A DNA stretch of 36,243 nucleotides from a virus. Under the pieces are notes generated by a model, which worked only from the letters and a program-made list of their open reading frames with translations, had not been told where the DNA came from and searched no databases. The position numbers were made by a program, and so were the translations under genes. Shown here in pieces: positions 5,182-30,092 of the stretch (its first letter is position 1; each line of letters begins with the position of its first letter). The stretch spans positions 1 through 36,243 of the IMG/VR virus record IMGVR_UViG_3300034198_022535. One strand, 5' to 3'.

Positions 5182-6429
5182 TCAGAACGCGGCGTTCAAG
5201 TTGGTGAACATGCCGTGAGCGTTGCGGCGCGGGACGCGGAGGTTGAAGCCCATCGAAAGGAACAACTTCCACGAGAAGTTGACCTGCGAGAGCTGCAGCG
5301 ATTCACGCGACCAGCCGCCGTTCTTGCCGCCGTCGACCTGGGGCTGAGGCTCCCAGAAGACGTGCATCTTGGTGACGTGCTCTTTGGTGTTGAGGAACAT
5401 CGCCGACTTGGGTTTGGCGCTGTTGCTCTGGACGACGGTGCAGCCGTCGAACTTCATGTTCGGGCCGTAGTTGTCGAGCGTGTCGCCGGGGGCGAATCGA
5501 AGCGTCGGGTTCTGCGACTCGTAGATCTTCTGGACCTGGTACGGGTGCGCGAGGATCACGTCGGGCGACTGCGAGCACTGCGCGAAGATGCGCTGGATCA
5601 TGCGCTTGCCGGCCGCATTGCCCCACGCCGTGGTCGTGGAGTCGAGCGTGCCCGCGGGCTGGTCGCTGACAGCGAGGTTGCTATAGAGCGCGACCGAGCT
5701 GTTCATGATGTCGCGAATGTTGACGTTGCGGACCGAGCCAGCAGGCGTCGCACCACCGGCCGAGGCCGCGAGGTAGATGAGGTCGCCAGCGACGAGGTTC
5801 GCCGTCAGCGAGGTGATGACGATCGATCCGGTGCCGTCGCCGTCATCGACGAGCGCGCCGGTCACAGCGTTCAGCTGCTTGACGGTCGTGCCGTTGCTGG
5901 CGTAGATGTCGACGAGACCGCCGCCGGTGCGGAAGCCCGAGATGTCGTCGATCTCGACGACGACGTTGGAACCGATGGCCTCGGTGAGTTCGACGGCGGC
6001 AAGCGAGTGGTCGATGACCGCGCGCTCGCTGGTGCGGCCGAGCTGGCGCGCAGCCTTGCCCATGGCCTCCATATAGAGGTCGATGCCGTTGCCGCCGCGA
6101 GCGACCTGCAGGATGCCCGCGGGGAACTCGAGGTCGCCGGTGATGATGCTGAAGCCGTAGTTGCCCGACGCGTACGTCAGCTGGACTGCGGCGTTGCGGG
6201 TGGCGCCGTCGACCTGGTAGGCGACGTTAGTCATGCCGCTGTTGTCGATCTGCACGCGGCCGACCTCTTCGGGCCGGACCATCTTGGCGAAGACCTTGGT
6301 GGGGTTCTTCTTGCCGCCTTCGGGCATCTTCCAATCGACGATGGTGGTCTCATTGTCGATCTGGTCGATGAGGTCGTCACGGCCATCTTCGGCCAGCAGG
6401 TTCGTCAGTGCGGAATACGAGAACGCCAT
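5182..6429 (-). CDS. Major capsid protein, 415 aa
   Basis: The length, the position straight after an Ala/Pro-rich scaffold-like gene and the near-consensus ribosome binding site (AGGAG) fit a highly expressed major capsid protein. The product begins MAFSYSALTNLLAED and has capsid-like stretches: a long segment with ATRNAAVQLTYASGNYGFSI, a Gly/Asp-rich beta insert near residues 170-230 (possible extra surface domain), and VILAHPYQVQKIYESQ near the C-terminal third, like major capsid proteins of short-tailed phages. The HK97 fold is assumed, not shown. No signal or membrane segment is present. Confidence 0.8.
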   Translation of the reverse strand: MAFSYSALTNLLAEDGRDDLIDQIDNETTIVDWKMPEGGKKNPTKVFAKMVRPEEVGRVQIDNSGMTNVAYQVDGATRNAAVQLTYASGNYGFSIITGDLEFPAGILQVARGGNGIDLYMEAMGKAARQLGRTSERAVIDHSLAAVELTEAIGSNVVVEIDDISGFRTGGGLVDIYASNGTTVKQLNAVTGALVDDGDGTGSIVITSLTANLVAGDLIYLAASAGGATPAGSVRNVNIRDIMNSSVALYSNLAVSDQPAGTLDSTTTAWGNAAGKRMIQRIFAQCSQSPDVILAHPYQVQKIYESQNPTLRFAPGDTLDNYGPNMKFDGCTVVQSNSAKPKSAMFLNTKEHVTKMHVFWEPQPQVDGGKNGGWSRESLQLSQVNFSWKLFLSMGFNLRVPRRNAHGMFTNLNAAF

Positions 6430-6454: not shown

Positions 6455-7432
6455 TCAGACGTCGAACCCACTCGACTGGAGTCGAGCGAGCTTGCCCGCG
6501 TAGCTGCGGTCCTTGGGCATTTGCGTGCCTGCCGGAATGGTGCGCGTCACCGGCGTCGGTGCCGTGCTGTTCGCCTGTCGTTGCGCGAGCAACTGCAGGT
6601 CCTTGGCGCGCTTGATCGCTCCAGCGACGTCGGCGGGGCGCTTCATCGCGAGGTCAGCGGCAACGAACTGCGCGACCTCCTCAAATGGCACGCCCGCCGT
6701 CTTCGCCTGCGTGCGCATGTCGTCGACGAAGACCTTGGCTTCATCGTTCGCACGCGCTTGCGCGAACTCTTTCTGTTGCGTCTGCGACGCCTCGTCACGC
6801 ATGCGCTGCACTTCAGCCATGCGCTGCGCCGACTGTTCGCCGACGCGGTAGTTGATCAAGTCGAGGTCGCGCTGGTCGACCGGGACCTGATGCTGATCGA
6901 GCAACGAGCGCAGAAGCTTGTTCTCCTCGTGGAGACGCAGGTTCTGCTGGACCGCCTTTGGGCCCGCCTCGTGCCACTTCGCCAGCTCGCCCTCGTACTG
7001 CGAGACCTTGGCCGTGAGCTCGCCGTGAGCCTTGCGGGCAGGCTCGGGCCACGCCTTCGGGTCGCTCAGGTCGGCGGGGGCCTCTTGCTTCTCTGCCTCG
7101 GGCTGCGCCTTGCTCTGGTCGGCTTCAGCCGCCTTCGGGGCGTCGGCTTTGGCGTCGCCGACAGCGGCGTCGTCGGGCTGCGCCGGGGTGGCGCGGCTTT
7201 CGTCGGGGAACGCCTCGCGCATGATGCGCTGTTTCGCGGGCGTGTTGCTGCGAACGAAACGCCCACGTTCACCGCGGGCGCGCTCCGCCGACGAGCGGGC
7301 CTCGGAAGCCGGAGCCTCCGAGGTGGCCGCTGGCGTCGACGATTGCGGAGCAGAGGCAGGAGCAGAAGGCGCCGGAGCAGCCGCAGGCGCTGCAGCCGGA
7401 GCCATCGACGGGGCTGCCATGGGCGCGCTCAC
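6455..7432 (-). CDS. Scaffolding protein, 325 aa
   Basis: The first ~50 residues are almost entirely Ala/Pro/Ser, residues ~85-130 are Ala/Glu/Lys-rich and disordered, and residues ~140-240 are a charged coiled coil (QYEGELAKWHEAGPKAVQQN, then RLHEENKLLRSLLDQ). A basic C-terminal region follows. This layout and the position directly before the major capsid gene are typical of scaffolding proteins that guide procapsid assembly and then leave. The GTG start at 7432 overlaps the previous stop by four bases (GTGA). No protease gene is seen nearby, so the scaffold may exit uncleaved or be processed by a host enzyme. Confidence 0.75.
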   Translation of the reverse strand: MSAPMAAPSMAPAAAPAAAPAPSAPASAPQSSTPAATSEAPASEARSSAERARGERGRFVRSNTPAKQRIMREAFPDESRATPAQPDDAAVGDAKADAPKAAEADQSKAQPEAEKQEAPADLSDPKAWPEPARKAHGELTAKVSQYEGELAKWHEAGPKAVQQNLRLHEENKLLRSLLDQHQVPVDQRDLDLINYRVGEQSAQRMAEVQRMRDEASQTQQKEFAQARANDEAKVFVDDMRTQAKTAGVPFEEVAQFVAADLAMKRPADVAGAIKRAKDLQLLAQRQANSTAPTPVTRTIPAGTQMPKDRSYAGKLARLQSSGFDV

Positions 7433-8097
7433 GCGTACACCCCGTTGTTACCGTAGCCGGTGCCATCGTCCTTGTTCACCGACGCGAAGTAGTGAATCTC
7501 GAACGTGTCGTTGGCCGCGGTGATGGTGCCGCCGTGGTTGATCGAACTGTTGGCGACATCCACCGTCGTCGACGAGATGGCGATGGCCGTGGCTTCGGTA
7601 CCGCTCACAATCTTGTAGATGCCGACCACGCTGTTCACGCGGTCGATCGGGTGCGGGAGGCCGATGCCGTCGCCGGAGATGCCGCAGGTGAGAGCATCAC
7701 CCGCCGCAGCACCGGTGACCGTGTTCGGCACGACGCTCGTCACCTGATCGAACACCTGCGTGCACGTGCCGGTGGTGGCCGCGCCGCTCGTGCAGGTCAC
7801 GGTGACCGTTTCCGAGATGGCCTTGCCGAAGCGGTTGCCAAAGAACGTGACGGTGACGGAGAGACCGCCGCCGCCGCCCGAAGCATCGGTCAGCACGAGC
7901 GTCGGCTTACGCGGAACGCGGAGCTTGAGCCCCGAGGCCGTGGCCGCGAGGGTGAGCGGCGTGCCGACGGTGACCGCCGACGACGGATCGACAGATGCGA
8001 CGAAAAAGTTGACCGTGGTCGCACGCGGGTTCGGCATGACGACGGTTTTGAAGAGGAGCTCGGACTTCGGCTCAACCTGACGAGCATTGATGGCCAT
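7429..8097 (-). CDS. Putative capsid decoration/structural protein, 222 aa
   Basis: The product begins MAINARQVEPKSELLFKTVV and continues as Val/Thr/Gly-rich beta sequence with a Gly run (SGGGGGLS, around residues 73-80). There is no membrane segment or enzyme motif. The ATG follows the previous stop by three bases, with a GAGG ribosome binding site. It sits just before the scaffold, next to another beta-rich protein of similar style, so a head decoration or minor capsid role is likely. I do not recognise a named family. Confidence 0.5.
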   Translation of the reverse strand: MAINARQVEPKSELLFKTVVMPNPRATTVNFFVASVDPSSAVTVGTPLTLAATASGLKLRVPRKPTLVLTDASGGGGGLSVTVTFFGNRFGKAISETVTVTCTSGAATTGTCTQVFDQVTSVVPNTVTGAAAGDALTCGISGDGIGLPHPIDRVNSVVGIYKIVSGTEATAIAISSTTVDVANSSINHGGTITAANDTFEIHYFASVNKDDGTGYGNNGVYA

Positions 8098-8100
8098 GGT

Positions 8101-8616
8101 TCAGACCTCTTCGATGCGCAGGAAACCCTGCTTTGCGCCAAAGTTGCCGGTCGAGGCGATGACTTTGAGCGAGATGATGTCGCCGATGACGAGGCTGGTG
8201 AGGAGGACGCTGGCGCTCACCATGACGGGTGCGCCGGTGAGCTGGGTGACGACGCATTTGCCCTTGGAGGCAGTGCCTGCGCCGGCCGAGAGCGAGCCCT
8301 TGTAGATCTCGGTCGTGATGACCTGCGTGGTCACGACGGTGATGCCGCTCAGCGAGTAGGTGACGCGGTAGTTGCCCGCCTTCGGAATGACGATGGCGCC
8401 GGTGGTCGCCGTGACCGAGCCGGTCGTGGCCGAGAAGAGCCCGCCGATGAGACCCGCGGTCCAGCCGTTGGCCGCGTCAGCGACGACGGTGGCGGTGGTG
8501 GGGGTGGTCAGCACGACGCCGGTGGCGTTGTCGAGCTGGAGCTCAGCCATGTTCTGCTGCACCGCGTAGCCATCGGGTGCGACCTTGGAATCAGAAGAGC
8601 GGATGATGTCGACCAC
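8101..8616 (-). CDS. Putative head-fibre/decoration protein, 171 aa
   Basis: A GTG start at 8616 has a strong GGAGG site six bases upstream. After a short variable N-terminus (MVDIIRSSDSKVAPDG) the protein resembles the jelly-roll/C1q-like domains of phage head fibres, with alternating beta segments such as IVIPKAGNYRVTYSLSG and LLTSLVIGDIISLKVI. This is the first gene after the repeated TTGACATAATC element and the lysis cassette, and so the first gene of the capsid block. The assignment is from sequence style; no catalytic residues are seen. Confidence 0.5.
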   Translation of the reverse strand: MVDIIRSSDSKVAPDGYAVQQNMAELQLDNATGVVLTTPTTATVVADAANGWTAGLIGGLFSATTGSVTATTGAIVIPKAGNYRVTYSLSGITVVTTQVITTEIYKGSLSAGAGTASKGKCVVTQLTGAPVMVSASVLLTSLVIGDIISLKVIASTGNFGAKQGFLRIEEV

Positions 8617-8667
8617 GAAGAACCTCCGGAAGATGTTGCGGGCAGCGTTGGAATGCTGGCCGCTGTG

Positions 8668-8685
8668 CTGGATTATGTCAACTCA
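8668..8685 (-). promoter_or_regulatory. Repeated leftward element, copy C
   Basis: On the minus strand this reads TGAGTTGACATAATCCAG. The 18 bases are identical to copy A (15787-15804), and 14 of them to copy B (13167-13180). It includes the stop codon of the C39-peptidase gene and precedes the head-fibre-like gene by about 50 bases. It contains a perfect TTGACA, but no TATAAT-like hexamer lies 17 bases further on. The function is unknown: possible late promoter, operator or RNA processing site. Confidence 0.5.
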
Positions 8686-9231
8686 GACGGGTTTCTTGTC
8701 TCTGCGGCTCAAGACCCGCAGGCCCTTCACGACGTAGCGGCGTCCGTCTTTCCACCCGCTGGGGCCGTCGAGGGTGACGGTGGAGATGCGACACTCAGCG
8801 CCTGTCGCCGGGTCGCTGCAGACGACCTGAGACGGCTCAAGGCGTTGCGCGAGGACCCAGTGGTCTGCCTCGGGGTCACCCTTGGCCTTGGCGCTGTCGT
8901 GGTCGACGTGGAGCAGTACCTTGCCGCCCGCGCTCAGCGCTTGGATGACGATGGCGCGCAGCTTCACGGCGTCGCCGTCGATCCGCGGCCCGCACAGCAT
9001 GTGGTTGGCTTCGGCCAGCTTCTCGATGATGGCCGCGCTGCCGACGAATGCACCGGCATCGACACCGCGCATGTTGGCGATGCGCGGGTCTGCCGTGATG
9101 GCCCCGTCGACGAGTGCAAGCGCCGCTTGTTGGATGCAGCAGACGAGGCACCCGACAGCGCCGAACGTGCTCGAGCCGATGCCCACCGGCGAATGCGACC
9201 ACGCCGGGTCACCTTGGCGGATGATGCTCAC
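8683..9231 (-). CDS. C39-like cysteine peptidase, candidate endolysin, 182 aa
   Basis: The N-terminal stretch RQGDPAWSHSPVGIGSSTFG followed by AVGCLVCCIQQ matches the substrate-groove and nucleophile region of C39-like (papain-fold) peptidases, with Cys28 as the likely nucleophile. His124 (ADHWVLAQ) and Asp140 (CSDPATG) are placed as the partner residues. It follows a holin-like gene by a GTGA overlap, so it probably cuts peptidoglycan cross-bridges as the lysis enzyme. Cytoplasmic synthesis with holin-mediated access is implied, since no signal peptide is seen. A virion-associated peptidase is the alternative. Confidence 0.6.
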   Translation of the reverse strand: MSIIRQGDPAWSHSPVGIGSSTFGAVGCLVCCIQQAALALVDGAITADPRIANMRGVDAGAFVGSAAIIEKLAEANHMLCGPRIDGDAVKLRAIVIQALSAGGKVLLHVDHDSAKAKGDPEADHWVLAQRLEPSQVVCSDPATGAECRISTVTLDGPSGWKDGRRYVVKGLRVLSRRDKKPV

Positions 9232-9467
9232 TTCGGCAGCCCGCTCACCTTGCCATCCTTGGCGAAGATGAGGCCGGCACCGCCGACGAAAGGCCCGATC
9301 TCGCGGGCGAAGTCGCGAACGGGCAGAGGCACACCAGGTGTGAAGGCGAGCACGCCGACGATGATCGACGTGATGCCGCCGCATGTCGTGCGCCACGAGC
9401 GGCCGAAGATCTTGGACATCGTCTGGTCGAGCCAGCCGTCGGGCGAGGGGGCGGGTGCGTCGGTCAT
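9228..9467 (-). CDS. Holin-like membrane protein, 79 aa
   Basis: Two hydrophobic segments (about residues 29-48, TCGGITSIIVGVLAFTPGV, and 57-69, IGPFVGGAGLIFA) are followed by a short polar tail AKDGKVSG that I recognise from many small phage holins. Size and topology fit a class II or III holin that forms holes in the inner membrane at the time of lysis. The ATG overlaps the upstream stop (ATGA), and the downstream C39-like peptidase starts within its stop (GTGA), forming a tight three-gene lysis cassette. Confidence 0.65.
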   Translation of the reverse strand: MTDAPAPSPDGWLDQTMSKIFGRSWRTTCGGITSIIVGVLAFTPGVPLPVRDFAREIGPFVGGAGLIFAKDGKVSGLPK

Positions 9468-9835
9468 TTGTTCTTCTCCTTGTTCAGTGCATCGATGTGA
9501 TTGACGGTGCTTCTGATTGCGTCTTCGAGCGACGCGAATCCGCGGTCCACCTTGGCGGTCAGGTTGGCGACGCTCTCGATGGTGGCGAGCTTGCTGGTCT
9601 GCGCCTCGAGGTTGGTCACGCGGCCGGTGAGCTCGACGTGTGCAGCTCGCGCCGGCCCGTTGAACTCTTTGAGTGCGGCGCTGTGCTCGTCGAGCTCTTT
9701 GGCGTGCTGCGCCTGCTTCGTCTCGACGACGAAGAAGAGACGAGCGGCACCGAGCACGCTGACGAGCAACGCCGCACCTGCGCCGACGACGGACAGGATC
9801 ACACCGATGACGGTGCTCAGTTGGTCAACGCTCAT
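9464..9835 (-). CDS. Membrane-anchored coiled-coil protein of the lysis cassette, 123 aa
   Basis: One transmembrane helix at residues ~8-37 (VIGVILSVVGAGAALLVSVL) is followed by an ~80-residue coiled coil rich in Lys/Glu/Ala/Leu, ending in NKEKNK. The real start is ATG 9835; a longer frame upstream is spurious shadow coding. Sitting directly before the holin, it could be an inner-membrane spanin-like or holin-modulating protein. No outer-membrane spanin lipoprotein is evident next to it, so this remains open. Confidence 0.5.
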   Translation of the reverse strand: MSVDQLSTVIGVILSVVGAGAALLVSVLGAARLFFVVETKQAQHAKELDEHSAALKEFNGPARAAHVELTGRVTNLEAQTSKLATIESVANLTAKVDRGFASLEDAIRSTVNHIDALNKEKNK

Positions 9836-9854
9836 GGTTCGTCCTCGTGGTGCA

Positions 9855-10568
9855 TCAGAATCCGTACCGACTGGCGACGTAAGACCTGAAGCCCGCACGC
9901 TCTGCCGTCGTCGCCGTCGCTGCCATGATGACCAACTCGGCGACGCCGATGTTGGCGGGCGCCGTCGATGTCTGCCGCGAGCCGAGCGTGATGCCGCCGG
10001 GGGCAGCGGCGCCAGCGTTGCCGGTGATGGGTGCGCTGTCGGTGAGCTGAATTTCTGACGATGCGCCGTTCCAGACCTCGGTGATGAGCCCAAACGTGTT
10101 GACCGCGAGCGTGTTCGCGCCGGTGAGCGAACCGCCGCCGAACATGCGCAAATTCGGCGTCGTCGTGAATTGCTGCAAGAGCATCGAGTCGGCCGTCGTG
10201 ATGCCATCGTGAAGGTCTCTCGTCGACGTCCACGTCACCTGTCGAAAGACCATGAAGATGGTGAACGGCTGCGCGAGCGTGAACGCCGCCGTCATGTTGT
10301 CGTTGCTGCCGTCGAACGTGATGCACGGAAGCCCGTTGATGGCCGACGCCGTGACGACGGGTTGCGACGCACCAACCGCCTGCACGAGGTGGTTCAGGTT
10401 GCCACTCTGGTCATTCCACTGGCTGACGCCGGTGACGATGGTCGTGCCCGTGTCGCTCTTGTACCAAGCGCGCAGGTTGGTCAGCGTCGCAGGGTTGATG
10501 GGCGCCGTGCTGTTGCGCTTGGCAGACGGCTCCCATCCAAAGTTCGGTGCCCACGGAGGACGGAACAT
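9855..10568 (-). CDS. LamG/concanavalin-like beta-sandwich virion protein, 237 aa
   Basis: The motif LRAWYKSDTGTTIVTGVSQW and then NDQSGNLNHLVQ is characteristic of LamG-like jelly-roll domains in phage structural proteins. Such domains bind glycans or decorate virions. The remaining 150 residues are beta-rich with aromatic and Gly positions typical of the fold. The ATG at 10568 follows the previous stop by one base. It lies between a small beta protein downstream of the portal and the lysis cassette, so a surface decoration or cell-contact role is likely. No catalytic residues are visible. Confidence 0.65.
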   Translation of the reverse strand: MFRPPWAPNFGWEPSAKRNSTAPINPATLTNLRAWYKSDTGTTIVTGVSQWNDQSGNLNHLVQAVGASQPVVTASAINGLPCITFDGSNDNMTAAFTLAQPFTIFMVFRQVTWTSTRDLHDGITTADSMLLQQFTTTPNLRMFGGGSLTGANTLAVNTFGLITEVWNGASSEIQLTDSAPITGNAGAAAPGGITLGSRQTSTAPANIGVAELVIMAATATTAERAGFRSYVASRYGF

Positions 10569-10569
10569 G

Positions 10570-10953
10570 TCAGCGGCTCACGACGAGAAACGCCGTCGCG
10601 CTGTACGACGTGGCGGCAGCGCTCGCGACGACGTAGAGGTCGACGTTTGTCGGGATGGCGAACGTCTCTGACCCAAGCGGCGGAATCGCACTGGCGCCCG
10701 TTGTGGCGTTGTAGTCGGCGGTGATGCTCGGGGCGCTGGCGCCAGTAGCGACGAGAGACCACGCGATAGTTGCACCCGCGCTGCCGTTCACGAGCTTCAC
10801 GCGGAATGCGCTGTTGCCGCTCGACGAGAGACCCGTGGGCAGCGTCGGCATCGTGACCTTGACCGGCGTGGTGCTGAGCGCCGTCGACGATGTGAAGGTG
10901 GGCAGGCCCTCAAGAGGTCCGAAACCTGCGCGCTCTGTGGTCGAGATGGTCAT
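10570..10953 (-). CDS. Small beta-rich virion protein, 127 aa
   Basis: The protein is Ser/Thr/Ala/Pro-rich with regular alternating hydrophobic residues and no charged coiled coil, consistent with an all-beta decoration or appendage protein. It has no Cys and no membrane helix. The ATG overlaps the portal stop (ATGA). The N-terminal TTERAGFGP stretch loosely echoes the TAERAGFRS near the C-terminus of the LamG-like neighbour. Function unknown; placement suggests a virion component. Confidence 0.45.
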   Translation of the reverse strand: MTISTTERAGFGPLEGLPTFTSSTALSTTPVKVTMPTLPTGLSSSGNSAFRVKLVNGSAGATIAWSLVATGASAPSITADYNATTGASAIPPLGSETFAIPTNVDLYVVASAAATSYSATAFLVVSR

Positions 10954-12791
10954 GGGACGACTCCGGGTTTGGGTTGCTCGGGTGCAGTGACGCCGCCTTG
11001 AGGCATCGCGGCCATCTGTTGCGCGCCAATCTGGCGATACGACGACAGCAGCGACATCAGGCCAGCGAGACGGTCAGATCCCGCGGTCGCGTTCTGCTCA
11101 TAGACGCCAAGGATGACGTCGACGGCGATGGCAGGGTCAACGTTCGGGTCAGCCTGCACGCCGAAGCCTTGCAGTGCTTGCGTTGCCTGCTGCGCCACGA
11201 TCGAGCGAGAGAGCCGCTGTATCGAGGTCTCAGCTTGGCCCGTCTTCCGAATCTCTTTCGCGTTGTCGACCGTCTCAAGGCCGTTGGCTGCGTCTTGTTC
11301 GACTGCTGCCGCCGTCGCCGTCTTGCTGAGGTCGGTGCCGCTAGCAGGCTCGAGGTAGACATCGGTCGCGAGGTCGGAGCCGACGAAGCTGACGATCTCC
11401 GGCAATCCTGCGTCGCCGATGATCTTCAGCATGCGTGGGACCTTGATGTACTGCTGAGCCAGCGAGAGCATCTGGCGATAGAGGCACATCAACGCGTGAT
11501 CTCGAGCGGCGATGGTCGGCGCGAACTTCTGCGCGTCGAGCTCGGAGATGTAGGCCAGCATTCGGGCGTTCTTCGACTGTGAGTAGTCGCTGCCGACGAC
11601 GGCTTCGTTGATGCCGAAGACGACGGAGATCATGCGCTCGAGCTCTTCGATCTGCGTCCACAGAATCGCGGGCACGGGGCCCGGCTCGATGATGCGAACG
11701 GCCGCAATTTTCTCTTGGTCGTTCTCCTTGATCTTCTGGCCCTCGCCATCCCACGAGTCGATGATGGCATCGGGCCCGATGACCTTGAGCCACTCGGCGG
11801 AGAACGCTGTGCGCTTCGCGAGAGCTGCGTGCAGACGGTTGAGCGCCTGTTGGAGGGGAACGGCGTCGTCGAGGTGTGTGCCGCCGTGCGGGCTGTCGGG
11901 GCGGTCGTTGCACTTCCAAACGATGATCGGGAGTTCGTTGTGCCGGAACGGGAAGTCGCCGCTCTCGACGACGTGGCCGGCGACGTGGATCGAGTAGTGG
12001 CCGCGCGGGATTCGCGTCGTGCGCTTGTTGTAGAGGTAGACGCACTCCACCAGGTCGCGCGTCTCGCCCCAGATGGAGATGGCCGGCGATGCTGACGGGG
12101 GCGTAGTGATGCCCGCCTTCATCAGCATCTCGCGGGCGACCTCTTTCGTCAGCCAGCGACGGACGTAGCAGTAGTCCGATTGCTCGATGTCCTCGCTGCC
12201 GTCGCTGCCCCAGTCGAACACCGCAAGCGGCTCGACGGTGATGTCACCGAGCGGCATCCCATCGCTGCCGATGGGGCCCTTGGTCGTGTCCCAGTACGCC
12301 CAGAAGGCCACACACGACTGCGCCGCACACGTCCACGCTGCGCGCGAGATCATGCGCCGGTGGTCGTTCTGCTGGCGCCATGCCGAAATGAGCTTGTTCG
12401 AAACGTCGGCGCTGACGACGTCGCCGTTGCTCGACTCGCCACCCCACGCCTTCACGCTCGGGTCTTTCGACGTGACGCGCGATTGCCACGTCAGGTGCAG
12501 ATTCCGCAGGATGTTGCGGTTGATGCGCGGGAGAAACGCGGGCCATTCGTCGACGACGAACTCTGAGCGCTGAAAGTTCCAGCCGCCCCACTGATGACCG
12601 TTGATGAACCGCTCATTCATCGTCGCGCGCTGCCACGCCGGGCGCTCGTAGGGCGCAAAGGTCTGCTTCGCGTCCATGAGCAGGCCACGCGCCGTCAACT
12701 TGTCTTGCTCGACGGGTTTGCCATCGGCGTCGACGAACTGCGCGACGTCAATGTCTGCGTCTTTGAGCGCGTCGTCGGTGAGGTCAGACAT
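10950..12791 (-). CDS. Portal protein, 613 aa
   Basis: This large protein lies two genes after the terminase large subunit, as portals usually do. The N-terminal part has YERPAWQRATMNERFINGHQ, then FLPRINRNILRNLHLTWQSR and a central EDIEQSDYCYVRRW motif, which I recognise from short-tailed-phage portals. The later half has an Ala/Gln-rich helical tail (~500-613) ending in Pro/Gln-rich sequence, a possible barrel or flexible extension. The portal forms the dodecameric channel for DNA packaging and ejection. The start overlaps the previous stop (TGATG). Confidence 0.85.
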   Translation of the reverse strand: MSDLTDDALKDADIDVAQFVDADGKPVEQDKLTARGLLMDAKQTFAPYERPAWQRATMNERFINGHQWGGWNFQRSEFVVDEWPAFLPRINRNILRNLHLTWQSRVTSKDPSVKAWGGESSNGDVVSADVSNKLISAWRQQNDHRRMISRAAWTCAAQSCVAFWAYWDTTKGPIGSDGMPLGDITVEPLAVFDWGSDGSEDIEQSDYCYVRRWLTKEVAREMLMKAGITTPPSASPAISIWGETRDLVECVYLYNKRTTRIPRGHYSIHVAGHVVESGDFPFRHNELPIIVWKCNDRPDSPHGGTHLDDAVPLQQALNRLHAALAKRTAFSAEWLKVIGPDAIIDSWDGEGQKIKENDQEKIAAVRIIEPGPVPAILWTQIEELERMISVVFGINEAVVGSDYSQSKNARMLAYISELDAQKFAPTIAARDHALMCLYRQMLSLAQQYIKVPRMLKIIGDAGLPEIVSFVGSDLATDVYLEPASGTDLSKTATAAAVEQDAANGLETVDNAKEIRKTGQAETSIQRLSRSIVAQQATQALQGFGVQADPNVDPAIAVDVILGVYEQNATAGSDRLAGLMSLLSSYRQIGAQQMAAMPQGGVTAPEQPKPGVVP

Positions 12792-13156
12792 CAGCGACGA
12801 CCGCCCATGACCGACATCAGGGCTTGAATCTTCGCCTGCCTCTTCATGTCGGCGTCTTCGTAGGGCTTGGTCTGCGAGTCAGCCGCGCTCGAGAGCAGCG
12901 ACCCGCCGAGCTGGCCAGCCATGCCACCGATAGTGCCCCCGATGGCCGTGCCGGCGCCTGGAACGACGCTGCCGATGCCTGCGCCGATAAGCGAGCCGGC
13001 CGCGGGAGCAAGTCCGCCCAGAAGCCGCAGGATGTCGGCGTTGCCCGATGCCTGTTTGCCGCCAGCCACCTCCTGCGCGGAGGGGCCTGCGACCTTGCCG
13101 ATGCCGGAATAGCCCTTGAAGGCGTCTTGGTATCTGCTCATGGCGGCAAGGGTCAC
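12791..13156 (-). CDS. Gly-rich hydrophobic small protein between terminase and portal, 121 aa
   Basis: The centre (residues ~45-85) is a long Gly/Ala-rich hydrophobic stretch (GSLIGAGIGSVVPGAGTAIG, then GTIGGMAGQLGG), like glycine-zipper membrane segments seen in ejection or pore-type proteins. The N- and C-terminal ends are polar and basic. The GTG at 13156 has GGCGGGGG upstream; an internal ATG at 13141 lacks a clear ribosome binding site. A virion membrane-active protein is plausible, but nothing decides it. Confidence 0.5.
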   Translation of the reverse strand: MTLAAMSRYQDAFKGYSGIGKVAGPSAQEVAGGKQASGNADILRLLGGLAPAAGSLIGAGIGSVVPGAGTAIGGTIGGMAGQLGGSLLSSAADSQTKPYEDADMKRQAKIQALMSVMGGRR

Positions 13157-13166
13157 GCCCCCGCCT

Positions 13167-13180
13167 GATTATGTCAACTC
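13167..13180 (-). promoter_or_regulatory. Repeated leftward element, copy B
   Basis: The minus strand reads GAGTTGACATAATC, identical over 14 bases to copies A and C. The terminase stop codon TGA lies inside the element, which ends 11 bases before the GTG of the next gene. If TTGACA were a -35 box, transcription would begin inside that gene, which argues against a simple -35 role here. Confidence 0.5.
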
Positions 13181-14721
13181 CAGCCCCCGCCCTTGGGACG
13201 CTGAAGAGCCCGAATCATGGCCCGACCGTCGATGGCCTGCTCTTTTGGAACGAAGACCTGCGGCGCCCGGTACGGGTTCTTGCGGCAACGACGCACCGCG
13301 TGGCCGTAGGCGACGAGGCCGTCTTTGCGCCCCTTCCACTCGCCGGTGACCGGGTCACGGTGGAGCTCGTCGCACTCGACTGCGAGCTGTGACGGGCCAG
13401 CGAGAACGCCAGCCTCTGCCGCCTCCTTCGCCCGCAGGAGCACGTCGTACATGATCGAGCGCCCCTCGGCGCCGCTCAGGTGCACGTCGACGACGGAGAG
13501 ACCAAGTTCCCGCGCGTACTGGAGCGGGCCCGCGCCGATGCCGTTCGTCTCGATGTCGAGGTCGGGCCGCGTTGGTGCCGGCGTCGGCAGGATGTTCGGT
13601 GCCGGCGACGGATGGTGCATCGTGTAGAGGTCGTTTGCCGTGCGCAGTGCTCGAGCAAGCGTCGTCGTGAGAATCGTGTTGTCGTGCAGCATGGCGCACA
13701 GCGTCTCATCGCGCTTGTCGACAACGGCGATCACGCTGGCGTCTCGCCCGCCGCCTTTGGATACGTCGACGGCAATCGCAATCTGGCCGCTGGTCTCGGC
13801 GAGCTCGCGGTAGATGAGCAGGCTGTGACCCTCGCAGTCGACGACGCGTTTGGGCGTCAGCGTCTCGGTCGGCCGCTTCACCCACAATCCCGCCGCGCTG
13901 CTGAAGAGGTGCCCTTCGGTCTGCGGAAACTCGCGTTGCAGCGTGTGCATATCGCCGCCGCACAGGTTGGGCAGAGCGTCACGCAACCACCAGGCTGCGG
14001 CTCGGCGGTCGGTGAATCCCTCGCCTTGGCACCACGCCCATTGCTCGTCTGTGATGAGCCCCGGGTCTCGTCGGTAGTCGTGGTGATCTTCGACGCTGAA
14101 GAACACGCGGTGAAAGCGGTTCAACGGGTCACGCCACAGTGAGCGGGTGGCGATGCCGTTGGGGCCCGTGACGTCGATCGTGGTCTCGATGATGACCTGA
14201 GACGTCATCGACATCGACGGCAACAACGCGCCTAGCGTCGTGTCGTTCAGGAAGAACGGCAGCTCGGTGACGTGGATGCGCTGATAGCCGCCACCTCGGC
14301 CAGCGTTCTTGCCGCTGCCGGTGTGGAACTCCATGACCGAGCCGCGCGGAAATAGGATGCGCTCGCTGTTGATGTCGCAGCCGGCGAACAACTCGAACAG
14401 TTGGTCGATCACCGACATCGCAAAGGCGACACGCTCTTTGCTTTTCTCGTCGGTGTCGACGAACAAGCCGCAGCGCACGCGGTTGCCGTTGGCGTCGTTG
14501 ACGAGACACCAAAGCATGTCGTCGAGCTCGACCGCAGTCGTTGCGCCGACGCGTCGAGGCTTGGCAGCGAACACCCAGTCATGCGCCGCACACGCGCCCC
14601 ATATGGCGCGTTGCTCTTCATGCGGGAACCATGGCGACGTCTCGGCCGTCATGTGGTTCACGATCTTCACCTGCCGCGCGACGGCGTCGATCGCGTCGAC
14701 AGGCAAACGAAGCAGCGCCAT
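13174..14721 (-). CDS. terL: Terminase large subunit (packaging ATPase-nuclease), 515 aa
   Basis: The N-terminal ATPase has an atypical P-loop KPRRVGATT (residues 54-62), in which the basic residues precede the Gly as in several terminases. TELPF (152-156) is the Walker B-like segment with the catalytic Glu. The C-terminal RNase H-like nuclease starts at IAIAVDVSKGGGRDAS (Asp319) and has DIETNGIGAG further on. Length is usual for the family. It converts ATP hydrolysis into DNA translocation through the portal and cuts the concatemer. It follows the small subunit by three bases. The circular assembly fits headful packaging, but this is not proven. Confidence 0.9.
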   Translation of the reverse strand: MALLRLPVDAIDAVARQVKIVNHMTAETSPWFPHEEQRAIWGACAAHDWVFAAKPRRVGATTAVELDDMLWCLVNDANGNRVRCGLFVDTDEKSKERVAFAMSVIDQLFELFAGCDINSERILFPRGSVMEFHTGSGKNAGRGGGYQRIHVTELPFFLNDTTLGALLPSMSMTSQVIIETTIDVTGPNGIATRSLWRDPLNRFHRVFFSVEDHHDYRRDPGLITDEQWAWCQGEGFTDRRAAAWWLRDALPNLCGGDMHTLQREFPQTEGHLFSSAAGLWVKRPTETLTPKRVVDCEGHSLLIYRELAETSGQIAIAVDVSKGGGRDASVIAVVDKRDETLCAMLHDNTILTTTLARALRTANDLYTMHHPSPAPNILPTPAPTRPDLDIETNGIGAGPLQYARELGLSVVDVHLSGAEGRSIMYDVLLRAKEAAEAGVLAGPSQLAVECDELHRDPVTGEWKGRKDGLVAYGHAVRRCRKNPYRAPQVFVPKEQAIDGRAMIRALQRPKGGGWS

Positions 14722-14724
14722 GGG

Positions 14725-15126
14725 TCAGGTCTCGTCGGGCTGCTTCGGCGGCCGAGCGAGAGCCACGAGCGCGCGCAGCAACGGGCTGTCCTCTGGCGCG
14801 TCGACCTCGACGATATCCTTGATCTTTCCGTAGTGCCGCTCCACCATCTTGTTGCTCGCGGCCTCGCGGATGTTGGCCGGAGCGTCGCGTGCCATCTCTT
14901 TGCGGGCCAGCAGTTCCTCTTTCGAGTCGTCGTCGAGTTCGACAACGCGACCAGTGCCCGCGGCCACAAGCATCGCCAGCGCCGAAGGTGCCGCGTCTTT
15001 GAACCAGTCGGGCAGCACGGCACGACCACCGGGGTTGCCGCTCTCGCCCTTCTTCCACCTGGTCGGGCTGTTGTTGGCGCGCTGAGGCACCGACGTCTTG
15101 GGTGGTTTGCGGATGCGCTTGGTCAC
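14725..15126 (-). CDS. terS: Terminase small subunit-like protein (DUF5681 type), 133 aa
   Basis: The N-terminus contains RWKKGESGNPGGRA, the hallmark of DUF5681 proteins, which commonly sit directly before the terminase large subunit as the small subunit. The middle is helical with an acidic run (ELDDDSKEELL), and the C-terminus is Leu/Arg/Pro-rich. It would recognise phage DNA and load the large subunit. The GTG start at 15126 overlaps the stop of a small Cys protein (GTGA), and the gene is followed after three bases by terL. Confidence 0.75.
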   Translation of the reverse strand: MTKRIRKPPKTSVPQRANNSPTRWKKGESGNPGGRAVLPDWFKDAAPSALAMLVAAGTGRVVELDDDSKEELLARKEMARDAPANIREAASNKMVERHYGKIKDIVEVDAPEDSPLLRALVALARPPKQPDET

Positions 15127-15293
15127 TTCTTCACCTCGTTTTGGTCGATCGTATCAGGGTCGCCGTCGTCGAGCACGGGCGCCTTGGGTTTGTCGACGAG
15201 GGACGCGTAGTAGTGCCACTGCGCACGGGGCAAGCTGCAGACGAAGCAATCGGGTCGATCGCACAGCTTGAGCTCGACATCCGAGTCCGTCAC
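15123..15293 (-). CDS. Small Cys-containing protein, 56 aa
   Basis: GTG at 15293 begins a 57-codon frame that overlaps both neighbours in GTGA fashion. The product has CDRPDCFVC, three Cys in a spacing that could hold a metal, followed by an aromatic stretch QWHYYA and an acidic tail. No family is recognised. It belongs to a run of small proteins between the RusA resolvase and terminase genes. Confidence 0.5.
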   Translation of the reverse strand: MTDSDVELKLCDRPDCFVCSLPRAQWHYYASLVDKPKAPVLDDGDPDTIDQNEVKK

Positions 15294-15400
15294 ATCATCA
15301 CCTCGTCTTCATCGACGACGACGGACCCGAGGGCGAACGCACCCGCGAGGCCGGCGACCGAGAAACACAGCAGCGCGAACAGACCGGAGAGGATGAGCAT
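15290..15400 (-). CDS. Small single-span membrane protein, 36 aa
   Basis: ATG at 15400 overlaps the previous stop by one base (TGATG), and the TGA stop overlaps the next GTG. The 36-residue product is hydrophobic from residue 2 to 30 (LILSGLFALLCFSVAGLAGA) and ends in an acidic tail VDEDEVMM, giving an inside-anchored topology. Coupled placement supports real expression. Its role is unknown. Confidence 0.5.
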   Translation of the reverse strand: MLILSGLFALLCFSVAGLAGAFALGSVVVDEDEVMM

Positions 15401-15747
15401 CACATCACCCCCACAATGTTGTCCATGTGTTCAGCCAGCTTCTTCAGGCGCTCGGCATCGTTGACGGCCTTCTTCGCACGTCGTCGGGCCATCGACTGCC
15501 GAGCGTGCTCGTTGTGGCACTCGCGGCACTCTTGGTACTTGCCACGCGTCAGCACGTTTGCGCCGACGACGCGGTGACCTCTTGGACACAGGTCGCCAAC
15601 ACGGACCGCCGTGTGTCGCTTGCGACCCTCGCACGGGTGATCGGCTCGCTCGTCGTCGAGCGTCATGCAGCGCTCGCCAGCAGCGGCGCCACACTCTTCG
15701 CACTTCGCCATCTGGATCCAGCGGTAGACAGGCGTCGTCGGGGTCAT
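15400..15747 (-). CDS. Two-knuckle zinc-binding protein, HNH-associated style, 115 aa
   Basis: Two metal clusters are visible. The first is C16, C19, C27, H37/C39 (CEECG, then ERC and HPCEG). The second is C54-P-R-G-H58 with C74 and C77 (CPRGH, ECRECHNEHA). The second resembles the zinc ribbon that often begins phage HNH nucleases, but the catalytic HNH residues themselves are absent. A basic helix (SMARRRAKKA) follows. The ATG has GAAAGG as a ribosome binding site. DNA binding near the packaging genes is plausible; nuclease activity is not supported. Confidence 0.55.
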   Translation of the reverse strand: MTPTTPVYRWIQMAKCEECGAAAGERCMTLDDERADHPCEGRKRHTAVRVGDLCPRGHRVVGANVLTRGKYQECRECHNEHARQSMARRRAKKAVNDAERLKKLAEHMDNIVGVM

Positions 15748-15786
15748 GCGTGAAAGCCTTTCAGTTCGTTGCTCACTGGTTCACCT

Positions 15787-15804
15787 CTGGATTATGTCAA
15801 CTCA
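15787..15804 (-). promoter_or_regulatory. Repeated leftward element, copy A
   Basis: The minus strand reads TGAGTTGACATAATCCAG, identical over 18 bases to copy C. It lies in an 86-base gap after the rusA stop and 40 bases before the zinc-protein start. No TATAAT-like sequence follows at 17 bases, so standard promoter function is unclear. Confidence 0.5.
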
Positions 15805-15833: not shown

Positions 15834-16259
15834 TCAGATCTGCCACACCTTGACCTCGGTGCGCCCCGTCGTGCCCCAGATCTTCCGAACAGTCACCTCA
15901 GCGATCTGGGCGTCGTCGTGCCATACCAGTCCGTTCAGGGCGTCGCACACCAGCTTCAGCAGATTGTCAAGATCTGGTTTCTGGTGGTGCGGCTTTCCGG
16001 GCGCCTGGTGCGGCTTTGGCTTGGTCGGCTTGGCCGGCGAGCTCATGGGCGCCAGCACCAGCACCAGATCGAGCTTGAGCGGCCCTGCAAGCGGCAGCAG
16101 GTGTTCCGACCCACGGAGCGCCGCAGAAGCGCCCAGAACGAATCCTGCTTCGCCCTGTCGGGTCTTCTCTGGCGTGAACGCCCTGCCGCCGACAAACCGA
16201 GGCCGGCCCTTCGGCACCGGGTTCCCTTCCACGCAAAAGCTGACGATCGGGTCAGTCAT
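15834..16259 (-). CDS. rusA: RusA-family Holliday junction resolvase, 141 aa
   Basis: The N-terminal VEGNPVPKGRPRF segment and the central KPDLDN (residues 94-99, Asp96 and Asp98) with WHDDAQI (Asp115/116) are the hallmarks of RusA. The Asp residues coordinate Mg2+ for symmetric cleavage of four-way junctions. Length is normal. The start MTDPIVSF was chosen because its ATG overlaps the upstream stop (ATGA); a longer frame from 16352 is shadow. It probably resolves recombination or replication intermediates before packaging. Confidence 0.88.
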   Translation of the reverse strand: MTDPIVSFCVEGNPVPKGRPRFVGGRAFTPEKTRQGEAGFVLGASAALRGSEHLLPLAGPLKLDLVLVLAPMSSPAKPTKPKPHQAPGKPHHQKPDLDNLLKLVCDALNGLVWHDDAQIAEVTVRKIWGTTGRTEVKVWQI

Positions 16260-16450
16260 TTGCACGCCCGCTGTTCCGCGTCGTTCCGCTGCGCTCGGAA
16301 CACCAGCGCCATGGACGTCGACACAACCGCCACGACGATGGCGACGATGCACGTCAAAAGAACACGGTCGGCGAAGTTCCGCGCTTCGCGCTCCGCCTGG
16401 TGCGCTCTGGCGACGTCAAGCGCGTTCAGTGTCCTCGTGTAGATGTTCAC
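16256..16450 (-). CDS. Small membrane protein, 64 aa
   Basis: GTG at 16450 overlaps the previous stop (GTGA). The first 28 residues are polar and helical, then one clear transmembrane span lies at residues ~30-51 (VLLTCIVAIVVAVVSTSMAL). A short basic tail with RAQRNDAEQRACK follows. Function unknown; it is coupled with an HTH-like gene upstream and rusA downstream. Confidence 0.5.
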   Translation of the reverse strand: MNIYTRTLNALDVARAHQAEREARNFADRVLLTCIVAIVVAVVSTSMALVFRAQRNDAEQRACK

Positions 16451-16713
16451 GCGTCACCTCGGCCAAGCGTCTCCAGAAACGCCACGTCGATGGGGTGAGC
16501 GTAGACGGCGCGGATGCGATCCCGCAGCGCCGGCAGCTTCGACGACTGCTGCTTTCGCTTTTTGCGGGGCGGACCTGGCTGCGTCAGTCCTCGGCGGCGA
16601 CGCTCAATGCTCACACACATGCGTGAGCAACCGAGTCGATCGCCGACCTCACGCAGGCTGCCGTTGAGCAGCTCTTCATCGGTCACCTTGATCCAGTTCA
16701 TGTATTTGGCCAT
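16447..16713 (-). CDS. Small HTH-like DNA-binding protein heading the late block, 88 aa
   Basis: The chosen ATG at 16713 has AGGGCGG immediately upstream; an in-frame GTG at 16788 gives 113 residues but a poor ribosome binding site. Residues LREVGDRLGCSRMCVSIERR resemble a helix-turn-helix, followed by a basic linker PPRKKRKQQSSK. It is the first gene after the palindrome-rich gap at 16.79-16.95 kb, so it may regulate the late genes. A role in packaging or replication initiation is the alternative. Confidence 0.5.
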   Translation of the reverse strand: MAKYMNWIKVTDEELLNGSLREVGDRLGCSRMCVSIERRRRGLTQPGPPRKKRKQQSSKLPALRDRIRAVYAHPIDVAFLETLGRGDA

Positions 16714-16790
16714 CCGCCCTGCATATCGCACTAAATCTGCGTCCGTCAATCTGAATCGTATCGCGTGCCATGTGTGCCTGAATCTCACAT

Positions 16791-16851: not shown

Positions 16852-16895
16852 GGTAAACGGTCGGGCCCTCTAAAGAGGAGGGCCCTCCTTTTACC
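16852..16895. terminator. GC-rich inverted repeat, candidate (bidirectional) terminator
   Basis: An inner stem GGGCCCTC/GAGGGCCC (16863-16870 and 16878-16885) has a 7-base loop. It is framed by outer arms GGTAAA (16852-16857) and TTTACC (16890-16895). On the plus strand the inner stem is followed by TCCTTTTACC. It lies between the primase stop (16946) and the late genes, so it may attenuate transcription from the primase. The T run is short, so strength is uncertain. Confidence 0.45.
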
Positions 16896-16945: not shown

Positions 16946-18952
16946 TCAGCTTTTACCCAGACCGACCGTCAGTGCTGAAGCGTGCTCGGGATCGGCCACC
17001 ACCCACCCGTGCTCGTGCGGTTCAAGGTATCCAGACTCCAACAACCGACCGACCATGCCGTTTTTGAACGCGGGTTTTGCGTACTGCTCGGCCGTCTTCG
17101 GGGTCTTGCCGCCCCCATCGTCGCGCGACAGCCACTCCACCAAGGCGCTCCTGCTGACGTAGGGCGCGCCGTCGCGTACTTCCGCCCCGCTGGCCCACCA
17201 CGCCCGCTCAAAGAGCCCACGGTGCCCCTCGAGGCCCTTGTCGGCCTTGCTCACCTTGGCGGGTGCTTGTTCGGGCACCATGACGGCGCTGGTGACCGCG
17301 TTGCCGTCCTCGTCGACCCACCCCGGAATCTCGACCTTCAACAGGGCGCAGTGCACGTCCGGGAGCATCTCGGCGTCTTTGGACTTCTTCTGCGCCAGCG
17401 TGATGACGCTGTCGTCACCCGGTGCCCGAGATGCCGAGAGCTCCATGTCGAGCGCCCCGCGCCATGCCGATGAACCTCGGGCGCGCCCCTTGTTGTCCTC
17501 GTTGTTGCCGGTGTGGTGCACCAGCAGCACCGAGCACCCAAACGCCCCCATGAGCTCGGCGCACGAATCCAGCATCGACCGTGTGTCCTGAGCGCTGTTC
17601 TCGTCACCAGACAAGAACCGGTGCAACGTGTCGACGACGATGAGCGACGGGCGCACGCCCCACGCCGTGATGGCGTCGACGGCTTTTCGCAATCCCGCTT
17701 GCTGGTCGAGGTCACAACCCGACTCGCTGACCAACATGCGAGATGGTGATGCATCGTGATGCGCCATCCACGCCGCAATGCGGCCGCGCAAACCATGGTG
17801 ACCCTCGCCGGCAAGGTAGACGACGTCGCCGGCCTTGACCCGCACGCCTCGCCACTCCGGCACGCCCGACGCAATCCGACAGCACCAGTCGAGCACGGCG
17901 AACGTCTTGCCGTGGCCCGAGGGGCCGTGAATCATCATGCAGGCGTTCGCTTGCAACCAGCCTTTGACGAGCCAGCTCAACGGCGCCGGCTGGGCGGCAA
18001 AGTCCGTTGCCCGCACCAGCCACGACTTCGACGGATGCCCGCTGGGCGTCAGCAACGCCGCCAGGTCGCGCCCTGCGGCTCGATAGTCGTTGGCGTCACC
18101 CAACAGCGGGGGCATCACGTAGCGCCCGCCATGCTTCGCTGTGGCCTGTTCGGCATGGCGGAGCCCGTGCCCGCCCTTGTCGTTGTCGGCCACAACCACG
18201 AGCTCGGCCTTCTCGCCCAGCAGCGCCCGCACATGCCCGGTCACCGGCTCCAGATTCGACGCGCCGTAGGCCACCACGGTCGGCTTGCCCGTGACCTCGT
18301 GGATGGTTGCCGCCGTGGCGAAGCCCTCGGCAAGGTACGTCGTGTCGTCGGCAGAAAGCGCCCCCAGCACCCAGAAGGCCCCGCGCGTCGACGTGCCGGC
18401 GTGAAAAAGCTTGCCGCCGTCGTCGTCGATATACTGCAGCGACGTGAGGTTGCCGTCGACGTCAAACAACGGCGCCATCAAGCGCCCGTCGCCGGTGATT
18501 CGGACGCCGTTGGGTTTCACGCCCTTGCGCACCAAATAGGGCTGATCGTCGGCCGCTGGTTCCGCGTGTTCCCAAATCTCCTCGATGACGTCGGCGGCGA
18601 CCTCTTGCCGGCGCTTCTGTTCGGCGTCTCGAGCCGCATGCATCTCCATGACCCATCGCTCGTATTCGGCCTCTTCGGCAGCCGTCATCTGCTTCGCGCC
18701 CGTGGCCCGCCAACGCTGCTCGACGCCCGCTTTCCAGCAGCCAAAGTAGCCCGCGGGCACGCCGTCGCCATGCGCGACGTAGTAACCGTTCTTCGCGCCC
18801 CGCTTGCCGTCGGAGGCGAACCTTCTCAGCTTGCCGTCGAACACGAGCTGCGCAGGCGGCACGAGCCCCGCGGCGCGCATCGCGTCTCTCAACTGCTGGT
18901 CTGGCGAGTCGTGTTCGTCGGCGCCCGTCAGCGTTTCCCCGAGCCGGGTCAT
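16946..18952 (-). CDS. TOPRIM primase-RecA-fold helicase (RepA/AAA_25-like), 668 aa
   Basis: The N-terminal half has a zinc-less primase-like region, then a TOPRIM core with Glu209 (LAEGFATA) and VVVADNDKGGHG (Asp256, Asp258). The C-terminal half is a RecA-fold helicase with a P-loop GPSGHGKT (343-350), Walker B LIVVDTLHRF (Asp441) and SVLLVHHTGNNED as the sensor segment. This matches phage and plasmid proteins that open the DNA and prime replication. The ATG overlaps the HTH gene stop (ATGA). It is the only replication initiation protein I see, and no polymerase is encoded, so host replication enzymes must be recruited. Confidence 0.8.
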   Translation of the reverse strand: MTRLGETLTGADEHDSPDQQLRDAMRAAGLVPPAQLVFDGKLRRFASDGKRGAKNGYYVAHGDGVPAGYFGCWKAGVEQRWRATGAKQMTAAEEAEYERWVMEMHAARDAEQKRRQEVAADVIEEIWEHAEPAADDQPYLVRKGVKPNGVRITGDGRLMAPLFDVDGNLTSLQYIDDDGGKLFHAGTSTRGAFWVLGALSADDTTYLAEGFATAATIHEVTGKPTVVAYGASNLEPVTGHVRALLGEKAELVVVADNDKGGHGLRHAEQATAKHGGRYVMPPLLGDANDYRAAGRDLAALLTPSGHPSKSWLVRATDFAAQPAPLSWLVKGWLQANACMMIHGPSGHGKTFAVLDWCCRIASGVPEWRGVRVKAGDVVYLAGEGHHGLRGRIAAWMAHHDASPSRMLVSESGCDLDQQAGLRKAVDAITAWGVRPSLIVVDTLHRFLSGDENSAQDTRSMLDSCAELMGAFGCSVLLVHHTGNNEDNKGRARGSSAWRGALDMELSASRAPGDDSVITLAQKKSKDAEMLPDVHCALLKVEIPGWVDEDGNAVTSAVMVPEQAPAKVSKADKGLEGHRGLFERAWWASGAEVRDGAPYVSRSALVEWLSRDDGGGKTPKTAEQYAKPAFKNGMVGRLLESGYLEPHEHGWVVADPEHASALTVGLGKS

Positions 18953-19200
18953 TCCTCCACCGAGCCGCTCGAGACATCCTCGCCGGCCGCATGCGCTCTG
19001 AGGAAGCGCGAGACCTTCAGCAGCGTCGACGAGCTCGGGTCACCCTCCGCATGCGCCAGCCGGTAAATGGAGTCGACGTGCACGCCCGCACCGACGGCGA
19101 CGGCTTTGAGATTCATCGGCTCCAGCCTTCGGCGGATCTCCGCAAGCGGAAGCGATGATTCGTGGTCGAGAGATTTTTTTCCGGTTTTTTTCTGGTTCAT
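18949..19200 (-). CDS. Small Cro/CI-like HTH regulator, 83 aa
   Basis: After a Lys-rich start (MNQKKTGKK) the region AVAVGAGVHVDSIYRLAHAE matches the two helices of an XRE-type helix-turn-helix, followed by TLLKVSRFLRAH, the usual closing helix. The ATG at 19200 lies right at the -35 of the rightward early promoter, so bound protein near its own start could shut that promoter. No good ribosome binding site is visible before the ATG, so translation may be weak or leaderless. It could regulate replication timing; it lacks the extra domain of a full repressor. Confidence 0.6.
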   Translation of the reverse strand: MNQKKTGKKSLDHESSLPLAEIRRRLEPMNLKAVAVGAGVHVDSIYRLAHAEGDPSSSTLLKVSRFLRAHAAGEDVSSGSVEE

Positions 19201-19202
19201 GC

Positions 19203-19231
19203 TTGACAGCCTAGCGTGCGTTCCGTAGAAA
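19203..19231 (+). promoter_or_regulatory. Rightward early promoter P1 (TTGACA-17-TAGAAA)
   Basis: TTGACA at 19203-19208 and TAGAAA at 19226-19231 are separated by 17 bases, which fits sigma70. It lies in the divergent gap, 53 bases before the first rightward gene. Upstream bases CATGC, shared with P2, include the start codon of the leftward HTH gene. Confidence 0.7.
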
Positions 19232-19283
19232 ACAAGCACGACGCGAACGGAATCACCCGACCGCGCCCACGAAGAGAGACGAC

Positions 19284-25304: not shown

Positions 25305-25342
25305 CACCCTGCGGCCGAGGCCGCAAAACGAAGGAACGACAG
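25305..25342 (+). promoter_or_regulatory. Hairpin 5' leader, copy 1
   Basis: The run CACCCTGCGGCCGAGGCC followed by GCAAAACGAAGGAACGACAG precedes the ATG at 25343. The stem TGCGGCC/GGCCGCA (25310-25316 and 25319-25325) is immediately followed by AAAAC and an AAGGA ribosome binding site. The same arrangement recurs at 25699. Confidence 0.55.
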
Positions 25343-25698: not shown

Positions 25699-25735
25699 CA
25701 CCCTGCGGCCTCGGTCGCAAAACAAAGGAACGACA
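25699..25735 (+). promoter_or_regulatory. Hairpin 5' leader, copy 2
   Basis: This repeats copy 1 with 33 of 37 bases identical. The stem keeps pairing (TGCGGCC with GGTCGCA, one G-U), with the loop bases changed from GA to TC. An AAAGGA ribosome binding site and then the ATG at 25736 follow. No separate promoter is seen, so it is probably a 5'-leader or internal RNA element. Confidence 0.55.
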
Positions 25736-29883: not shown

Positions 29884-30092
29884 TGCTGCAACTCAACCCC
29901 ATGGTGCCCGTCTACTCGCTCGCTCACTCCATGGAGGGATTCGCGTTCATGGTGATCGACTACTCGCAGGAGCATGACCTGCTGTTCGTCGTCGCGCTCG
30001 ACAACGGCGAGATCTGGACCATCAAAAACAAAGACGTCAGGTTTTGTAAGAACCTGACGCTTGATCGTGACCCGATGAAGAAGGCGCCCTAG
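29880..30092 (+). CDS. Uncharacterised protein ending the early arm, 70 aa
   Basis: The product (MMLQLNPMVPVYSLAHSMEG...) is mixed alpha-beta with alternating hydrophobics (HDLLFVVALDNGEIWTIK) and a basic end. The 3' end contains the leftward terminator stem. The stop TAG shares its bases with the converging gene's stop: CTAG at 30089-30092 serves both strands. Function unknown. Confidence 0.5.
   Translation: MMLQLNPMVPVYSLAHSMEGFAFMVIDYSQEHDLLFVVALDNGEIWTIKNKDVRFCKNLTLDRDPMKKAP
30024..30059 (-). terminator. Leftward intrinsic terminator inside the converging early gene
   Basis: On the minus strand a 9-base stem (CGTCAGGTT with AACCTGACG, 30059-30051 and 30043-30035) is followed by TCTTTGTTTTT. 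It lies 30 bases after the last leftward stop codon and would end the long late transcript. On the plus strand it lacks a U tract. Confidence 0.65.

Follow-up and report, generated by a model that had tools for sequence, protein, structure and literature searches.

A short element repeated three times among the late genes of a metagenomic phage genome, and its reading as probable internal late promoters

The window analysed here, a contig of 36,243 bases, carries one 14-base sequence, GAGTTGACATAATC, in three exact copies on the minus strand (A, 8671-8684; B, 13167-13180; C, 15790-15803), and we consider it probable, at about 0.62, that all three act as internal late promoters used by the host's RNA polymerase carrying the main sigma factor. 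The triple repeat is real and beyond chance. Since related phages have TTGACR followed by an xAxxxT hexamer at the same boundaries as A and B, the TTGACA within the element is most likely a -35 box, and these two copies most likely promoters internal to the late genes, each with a weak -10 box. For copy C a promoter role is plausible, although its -10 is not evident.

The repeated element and its genome

The contig has an 87-base direct terminal repeat, and the genome is therefore most likely complete, at ~36,156 bases, with a GC content of 65%. The plus strand carries early and replication genes between about 19,284 and 30,092; late genes are on the minus strand, starting near 19,200 and continuing to lower positions past the contig ends to 30,089; a terminator-like hairpin of 10 pairs (30034-30060) lies where the two arms meet. 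The P22-type portal (PF16510) and the terminase suggest a P22-like podovirus. Many phages, including Salicola, Idiomarina and Alteromonas phages, share its replication module (primase, Sak4, SSB, Cas4-type exonuclease and helicase), and comparison of the late proteins with the loci carrying this module gave just two weak matches, in one locus each. A search for a T7-type RNA polymerase (PF00940) returned nothing in the window, as it did in the control genomes of the same search. The features around the three copies are as follows.

8671-8684, minus strand: copy A of the 14-mer (18-base form, 8668-8685), with TTGACA (-35) at 8681-8676
8653-8658, minus strand: CAGCAT, putative -10 of promoter A, 17 bases past TTGACA
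8101-8616, minus strand: first gene past A, GTG start, CGGAGG ribosome site at 8628-8623
7429-8097, 6455-7432 and 5182-6429, minus strand: next genes past A, in this order, in the capsid region and annotated by position
8683-9396, minus strand: C39-like peptidase gene, upstream of A, homologous in relatives L242 and L243
13167-13180, minus strand: copy B of the 14-mer, with TTGACA (-35) at 13177-13172
13149-13154, minus strand: GACCCT, putative -10 of promoter B, 17 bases past TTGACA and 7 before the ATG at 13141
12791-13141, minus strand: small gene past B, ATG start without Shine-Dalgarno, predicted to be leaderless or nearly so
10950-12791, minus strand: portal gene, after the small gene past B
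13174-14721, minus strand: terL
15790-15803, minus strand: copy C of the 14-mer (18-base form, 15787-15804)
15744-15776, minus strand: ten-codon ORF, GTG to TGA, directly past copy C, read from the sequence
15400-15747, minus strand: gene past C, weak HNH-endonuclease match
15123-15293, then 14725-15126 (DUF5681-like, in the terS position), then terL, minus strand: following genes past C
15834-16352, minus strand: rusA, upstream of C, true start uncertain within the ORF

The original prediction was borne out as to the element itself: the copies follow the peptidase gene, terL and rusA respectively, TTGACA is exact in all three, and the upstream stop codon touches the element at A (TGA 8683-8685, overlapping the first two bases of the 14-mer) and at B (the terL TGA, 13174-13176, inside the copy). 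The outer copies A and C, said to have 18 bases in common, are indeed identical over TGAGTTGACATAATCCAG (18/18), and in a wider frame 20 of 21 bases agree. The real start of the peptidase gene may fall inside its ORF; no family match was found for this gene, and 'C39-like' is the label under which it was first described.

Under Markov models of order 1-4, only 0.6-4 x 10^-5 exact copies of GAGTTGACATAATC are expected, and none of 150 genomes simulated at order 5 had an equally unlikely 14-mer present three times. Just one other 14-mer occurs three times in the genome; it is GC-rich, and its expectation is a hundred-fold higher. No further copy of GAGTTGACATAATC with up to 3 mismatches occurs in the window (0.96 expected at that tolerance). 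A same-strand gene start lies less than 60 nt downstream of all three copies, as in 4% of random placements when gene starts are those chosen in this analysis; the distance from the end of the element to the start codon is 25 to 54 bases.

When IMG/VR was scanned for exact GAGTTGACATAATC, the matches listed were mostly in unrelated contigs, against which tblastn with the window proteins gave a few early-gene matches only. The clearest was L035, where GAGTTGACATAATC resembles the -35 of a normal promoter. The 18-mer was also found in three contigs, and was rejected as a signal from relatives: all three represent one AT-rich stretch unrelated to the window. No weight was given either to TTGACATAA(T), found past the primase in seven replication-module relatives, where it belongs to a DnaA-box-rich, origin-like region of one clade (L198, about 12560-12830; also L147, L168, L181, L190, L192 and L201). 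In this region TTATCCACA boxes are numerous and TTGACATAAT is conserved (TTGACATAAA in L147). Two other replication-module relatives have TTGACA-N17-CATAAT promoters downstream of the primase, two in L143 and one in L139, followed by similar sequence.

Promoter-like sequence at the same boundaries in related phages

Single-sequence searches with the portal, terL, capsid and rusA found no close relatives. A loose portal alignment that included three distant portals brought in L242, L243 and L244, whose portals are 62%, 61% and 66% identical to that of the window and in which terL is followed, as in the window, by the small gene, portal, ..., peptidase, ... and capsid, L244 ending inside the portal. 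A second scan added one contig, L283, which also ends inside the portal gene. For the purposes of comparison these amount to two independent lineages beside the window, L242 and L244 being alike at site B.

The motif had been proposed as something to look for at the same gene boundaries in related phages; none of the late-module relatives found contains the 14-mer, but TTGACR is present at both A and B. The terL boundary reads TTGACA-N17-GACCCT-N7-ATG in the window, TTGACG-N17-CATGAT-N7-ATG in L242 and L244, and TTGACG-N17-CATGCT-N7-ATG in L243. The peptidase boundary reads TTGACA-N17-CAGCAT in the window and TTGACA-N18-TAGCCT in L242 and L243. A late-strand search for TTGACR followed 17 or 18 bases on by NANNNT found, along the window's late arm (19200 to 1), B and A alone (0.67 expected); it found only the terL and peptidase boundaries in L242 and L243 (0.25 and 0.93 expected) and only the terL boundary in L244 (0.10 expected). 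Across the whole records of the four relatives there were 18 matches, versus 1 for a reversed control. Because some of these precede early genes (TTGACG-N17-TATGCT and similar), the pattern looks like a general promoter type of these phages.

These comparisons bear on two objections that had been raised to a -35 role for TTGACA. The first, that no -10 box lies 17 bases on, does not stand at A (CAGCAT) or B (GACCCT), whose hexamers match TATAAT at 3 and 2 of 6 positions respectively. It does stand at C, where an xAxxxT hexamer is absent 16-19 bases past TTGACA. The second, that copy B is too close to its gene for a normal -35, loses its force, as the distance is the same in relatives: the B hexamer begins 13 bases before the ATG in the window, L242, L243 and L244, its first base never being T, and no Shine-Dalgarno is visible before the gene start in any of the four. 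Leaderless genes of high-GC bacteria are marked by TAnnnT ~12 bases upstream of the start, the middle bases being uninformative (PMC3160421), and the pattern at site B appears close to theirs. Since the geometry to the ATG at B (TTGACR-N17-xAxxxT-N7-ATG) is identical in the window, L242, L243 and L244, it would imply a nearly leaderless transcript.

At the packaging side, L244 has TTGACT-N18-TAGAAA-N7-ATG before terS, at the start of the late block, and L242 has TTGCAA-N18-TATAGT-N6-ATG. By place, this promoter-like sequence is the counterpart of C, though the genes between C and terL differ. The ten-codon ORF directly past copy C may encode a leader peptide; its stop codon overlaps the next gene's ATG (15747). 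L283 has another, near-palindromic element, TGCATTATAGTGCA, at boundary B (6952-6965), and the same 14 bases lie before terS in L242 (7489-7502); they contain TATAGT, and TATAAT on the other strand, and are perhaps an operator on a promoter. A separate sequence, ATYGTGTGAACCGTGAMAG, occurs twice in L243 (5650-5668 and 7445-7463), once just before the putative terS start.

If the three copies are promoters of this type, with TTGACA as the -35 and, at A and B, a weak, GC-tolerant -10 (xAxxxT) 17 bases on, transcription would start at ~8646, 13142 and 15765, about 35 bases past the first T of TTGACA. From promoter A the capsid block would be read on a transcript with a leader, the ribosome site lying ahead of the GTG, and promoter B would yield a leaderless or nearly leaderless transcript from the ATG ahead of the portal gene. 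Copy C would serve the start of the packaging block, where relatives are likewise promoter-like before terS. We infer these starts and the sigma dependence, as we do any regulator. A promoter, an operator and an RNA processing site had all been suggested for the element: the relatives favour a promoter at A and B, the description 'phage-specific' fits the flanking bases, and nothing favours RNA processing.

Flanking bases, candidate regulator and alternative readings

A -35 alone leaves the identity of the bases around TTGACA unexplained. The flanks GAG...TAATC are common to the window copies and not to the relatives, and five or six of the six bases past TTGACA agree between window copies. 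The six bases past the -35 agree fully between the two late promoters of L242 (6/6, GCGTCC), which has its own form, TTGACRGCGTCC, at both; the two of L243 agree at 3/6, and 0-3 agree between phages. This suggests a phage-specific part in two of the three phages, perhaps contacted by a regulator. A tentative extension, which we hold to be possible though not probable, is that GAG...TAATC forms the binding site of a phage late regulator, placed on a perfect -35 and a weak -10, such that regulator and site change together and the phage-specific code drifts at fixed positions. Contact of such a regulator with the flanks would let the three promoters fire as a set. The agreement of the flanks could instead come from gene conversion or from common descent of the promoters. 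The features that bear on this question are as follows.

16447-16788, minus strand: small helix-turn-helix protein; its HTH_23 and sigma-region-4-type matches are weak, and each falls below the cut-off
19203-19231, plus strand: early promoter P1, TTGACA-N17-TAGAAA
25269-25297, plus strand: early promoter P2, TTGACA-N17-TAGAAT, beginning with TTGACATTATC, one base off the late element

The helix-turn-helix protein is a candidate for the late regulator. Its PF04545 match (13.6 bits, under the cut-off) is the best sigma-region-4 match, and the structure model of the protein was too poor for use. Because P2 starts with TTGACATTATC, only one base different, the putative regulator might act there too. 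P1 (19197-19231) and P2 (25263-25297) have in common CATGCTTGACA, the 17-base spacing and CCGTAGAA around the -10. A 37-base leader with a ribosome site (CACCCTGCGGCC...AAGGAACGACA) occurs before two consecutive early genes on the plus strand (25305-25341 and 25699-25735, 89% identical), and a strong 9-pair hairpin, with a T-rich tail on the plus strand only, lies between the primase and the helix-turn-helix gene (16863-16885).

The conserved bases can also be read as an extended -10 promoter, in which TGACATAAT provides TGn and CATAAT, no -35 is needed and transcription would start 6-7 bases on (about 8665, 13161 and 15784), perhaps through a sigma factor that the phage encodes or modifies. 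This would account for the conserved TAAT and cover every copy, even C. Matches to TGNYATAAT in the window are confined to the three copies (0.13 expected), a count that is not independent of the repeat, and CATAAT lies 17 bases past TTGACA, like a -10, in the replication-module relatives L139 and L143. However, relatives keep TTGACR and not TGACATAAT at the same boundaries, and we lowered this reading for that reason to an unlikely one. It also leaves the fixed spacing to the ATG at B unexplained, early promoter P2 uses TTGACATTATC as a clear -35, and no sigma factor gene was found in the window, where the best sigma-region-4 match is under the cut-off.

Somewhat more doubtful still, by analogy with stoperators, is an operator at which a phage protein bound to GAGTTGACATAATC, and to the similar TTGACATTATC of P2, would block or pause transcription. 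The element is asymmetric, has one orientation to transcription, lies in short gaps, overlaps stop codons and is conserved over 14-21 bases; it is similar to the -35 region of P2, and an XRE-type protein is encoded at 18949-19239. Yet there are three copies only, compared with more than twenty in L5 (PMC9283540), no tyrosine integrase was found in the window and hence no sign of lysogeny, and relatives show promoter-like sequence, with no shared operator, at the boundaries. A recombination or module-boundary sequence, kept by phage exchange with no role in expression, is very improbable: copy C does lie at the junction of the replication module (L130-L209 group) and the packaging module (L242-L244 group), but the block around A and B is collinear in relatives, which are without the sequence.

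On the preferred reading as internal late promoters, at least two, and probably three, of these would mark off the packaging, portal-to-lysis and capsid blocks. The result is a first, predicted map of transcription, with a predicted leaderless late transcript, for a group of phages that only metagenomes have so far revealed. The promoters also provide a small, clean case of phages that keep promoter positions while the recognition sequence around them differs; should a regulator read the flanks, this example could help in studying the evolution of regulator and site pairs.

Comparison with known systems

The late promoters of phages 7-11 and phiEco32 have similar genome positions and different sequences (PMC8948821). 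As in such phiEco32-like phages, a short conserved element is repeated here ahead of late blocks, with positions kept and sequences differing; those phages have a phage sigma factor and promoters mapped by experiment, whereas the window has what appears to be a -35 of host type and no sigma gene was found in it. The stoperators of Cluster A mycobacteriophages are asymmetric 13-base sites in >20 copies with a known repressor (PMC9283540, PMC6550527), and resemble the present element in their asymmetry, single orientation to transcription and location in short intergenic spaces. Here, by contrast, there are three copies instead of many, and no known binding protein. The start-associated sequences of Cluster K phages, typically 3-7 bases from the start codon and thought to be translational (PMC3203893), are likewise short asymmetric repeats just upstream of gene starts, but 25 to 54 bases separate the end of the element described here from the start codon. 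With high-GC sigma-70 promoters, leaderless ones included (PMC3160421), the element shares TTGACA, a 17-18 base spacing, a degenerate -10 and, at B, the short distance to the start; it differs from ordinary sigma-70 promoters in that its 14-base identity reaches well past the -35 and that C is without a -10. The internal late promoters proposed here would be a sensible and fairly ordinary form of gene control in a phage.
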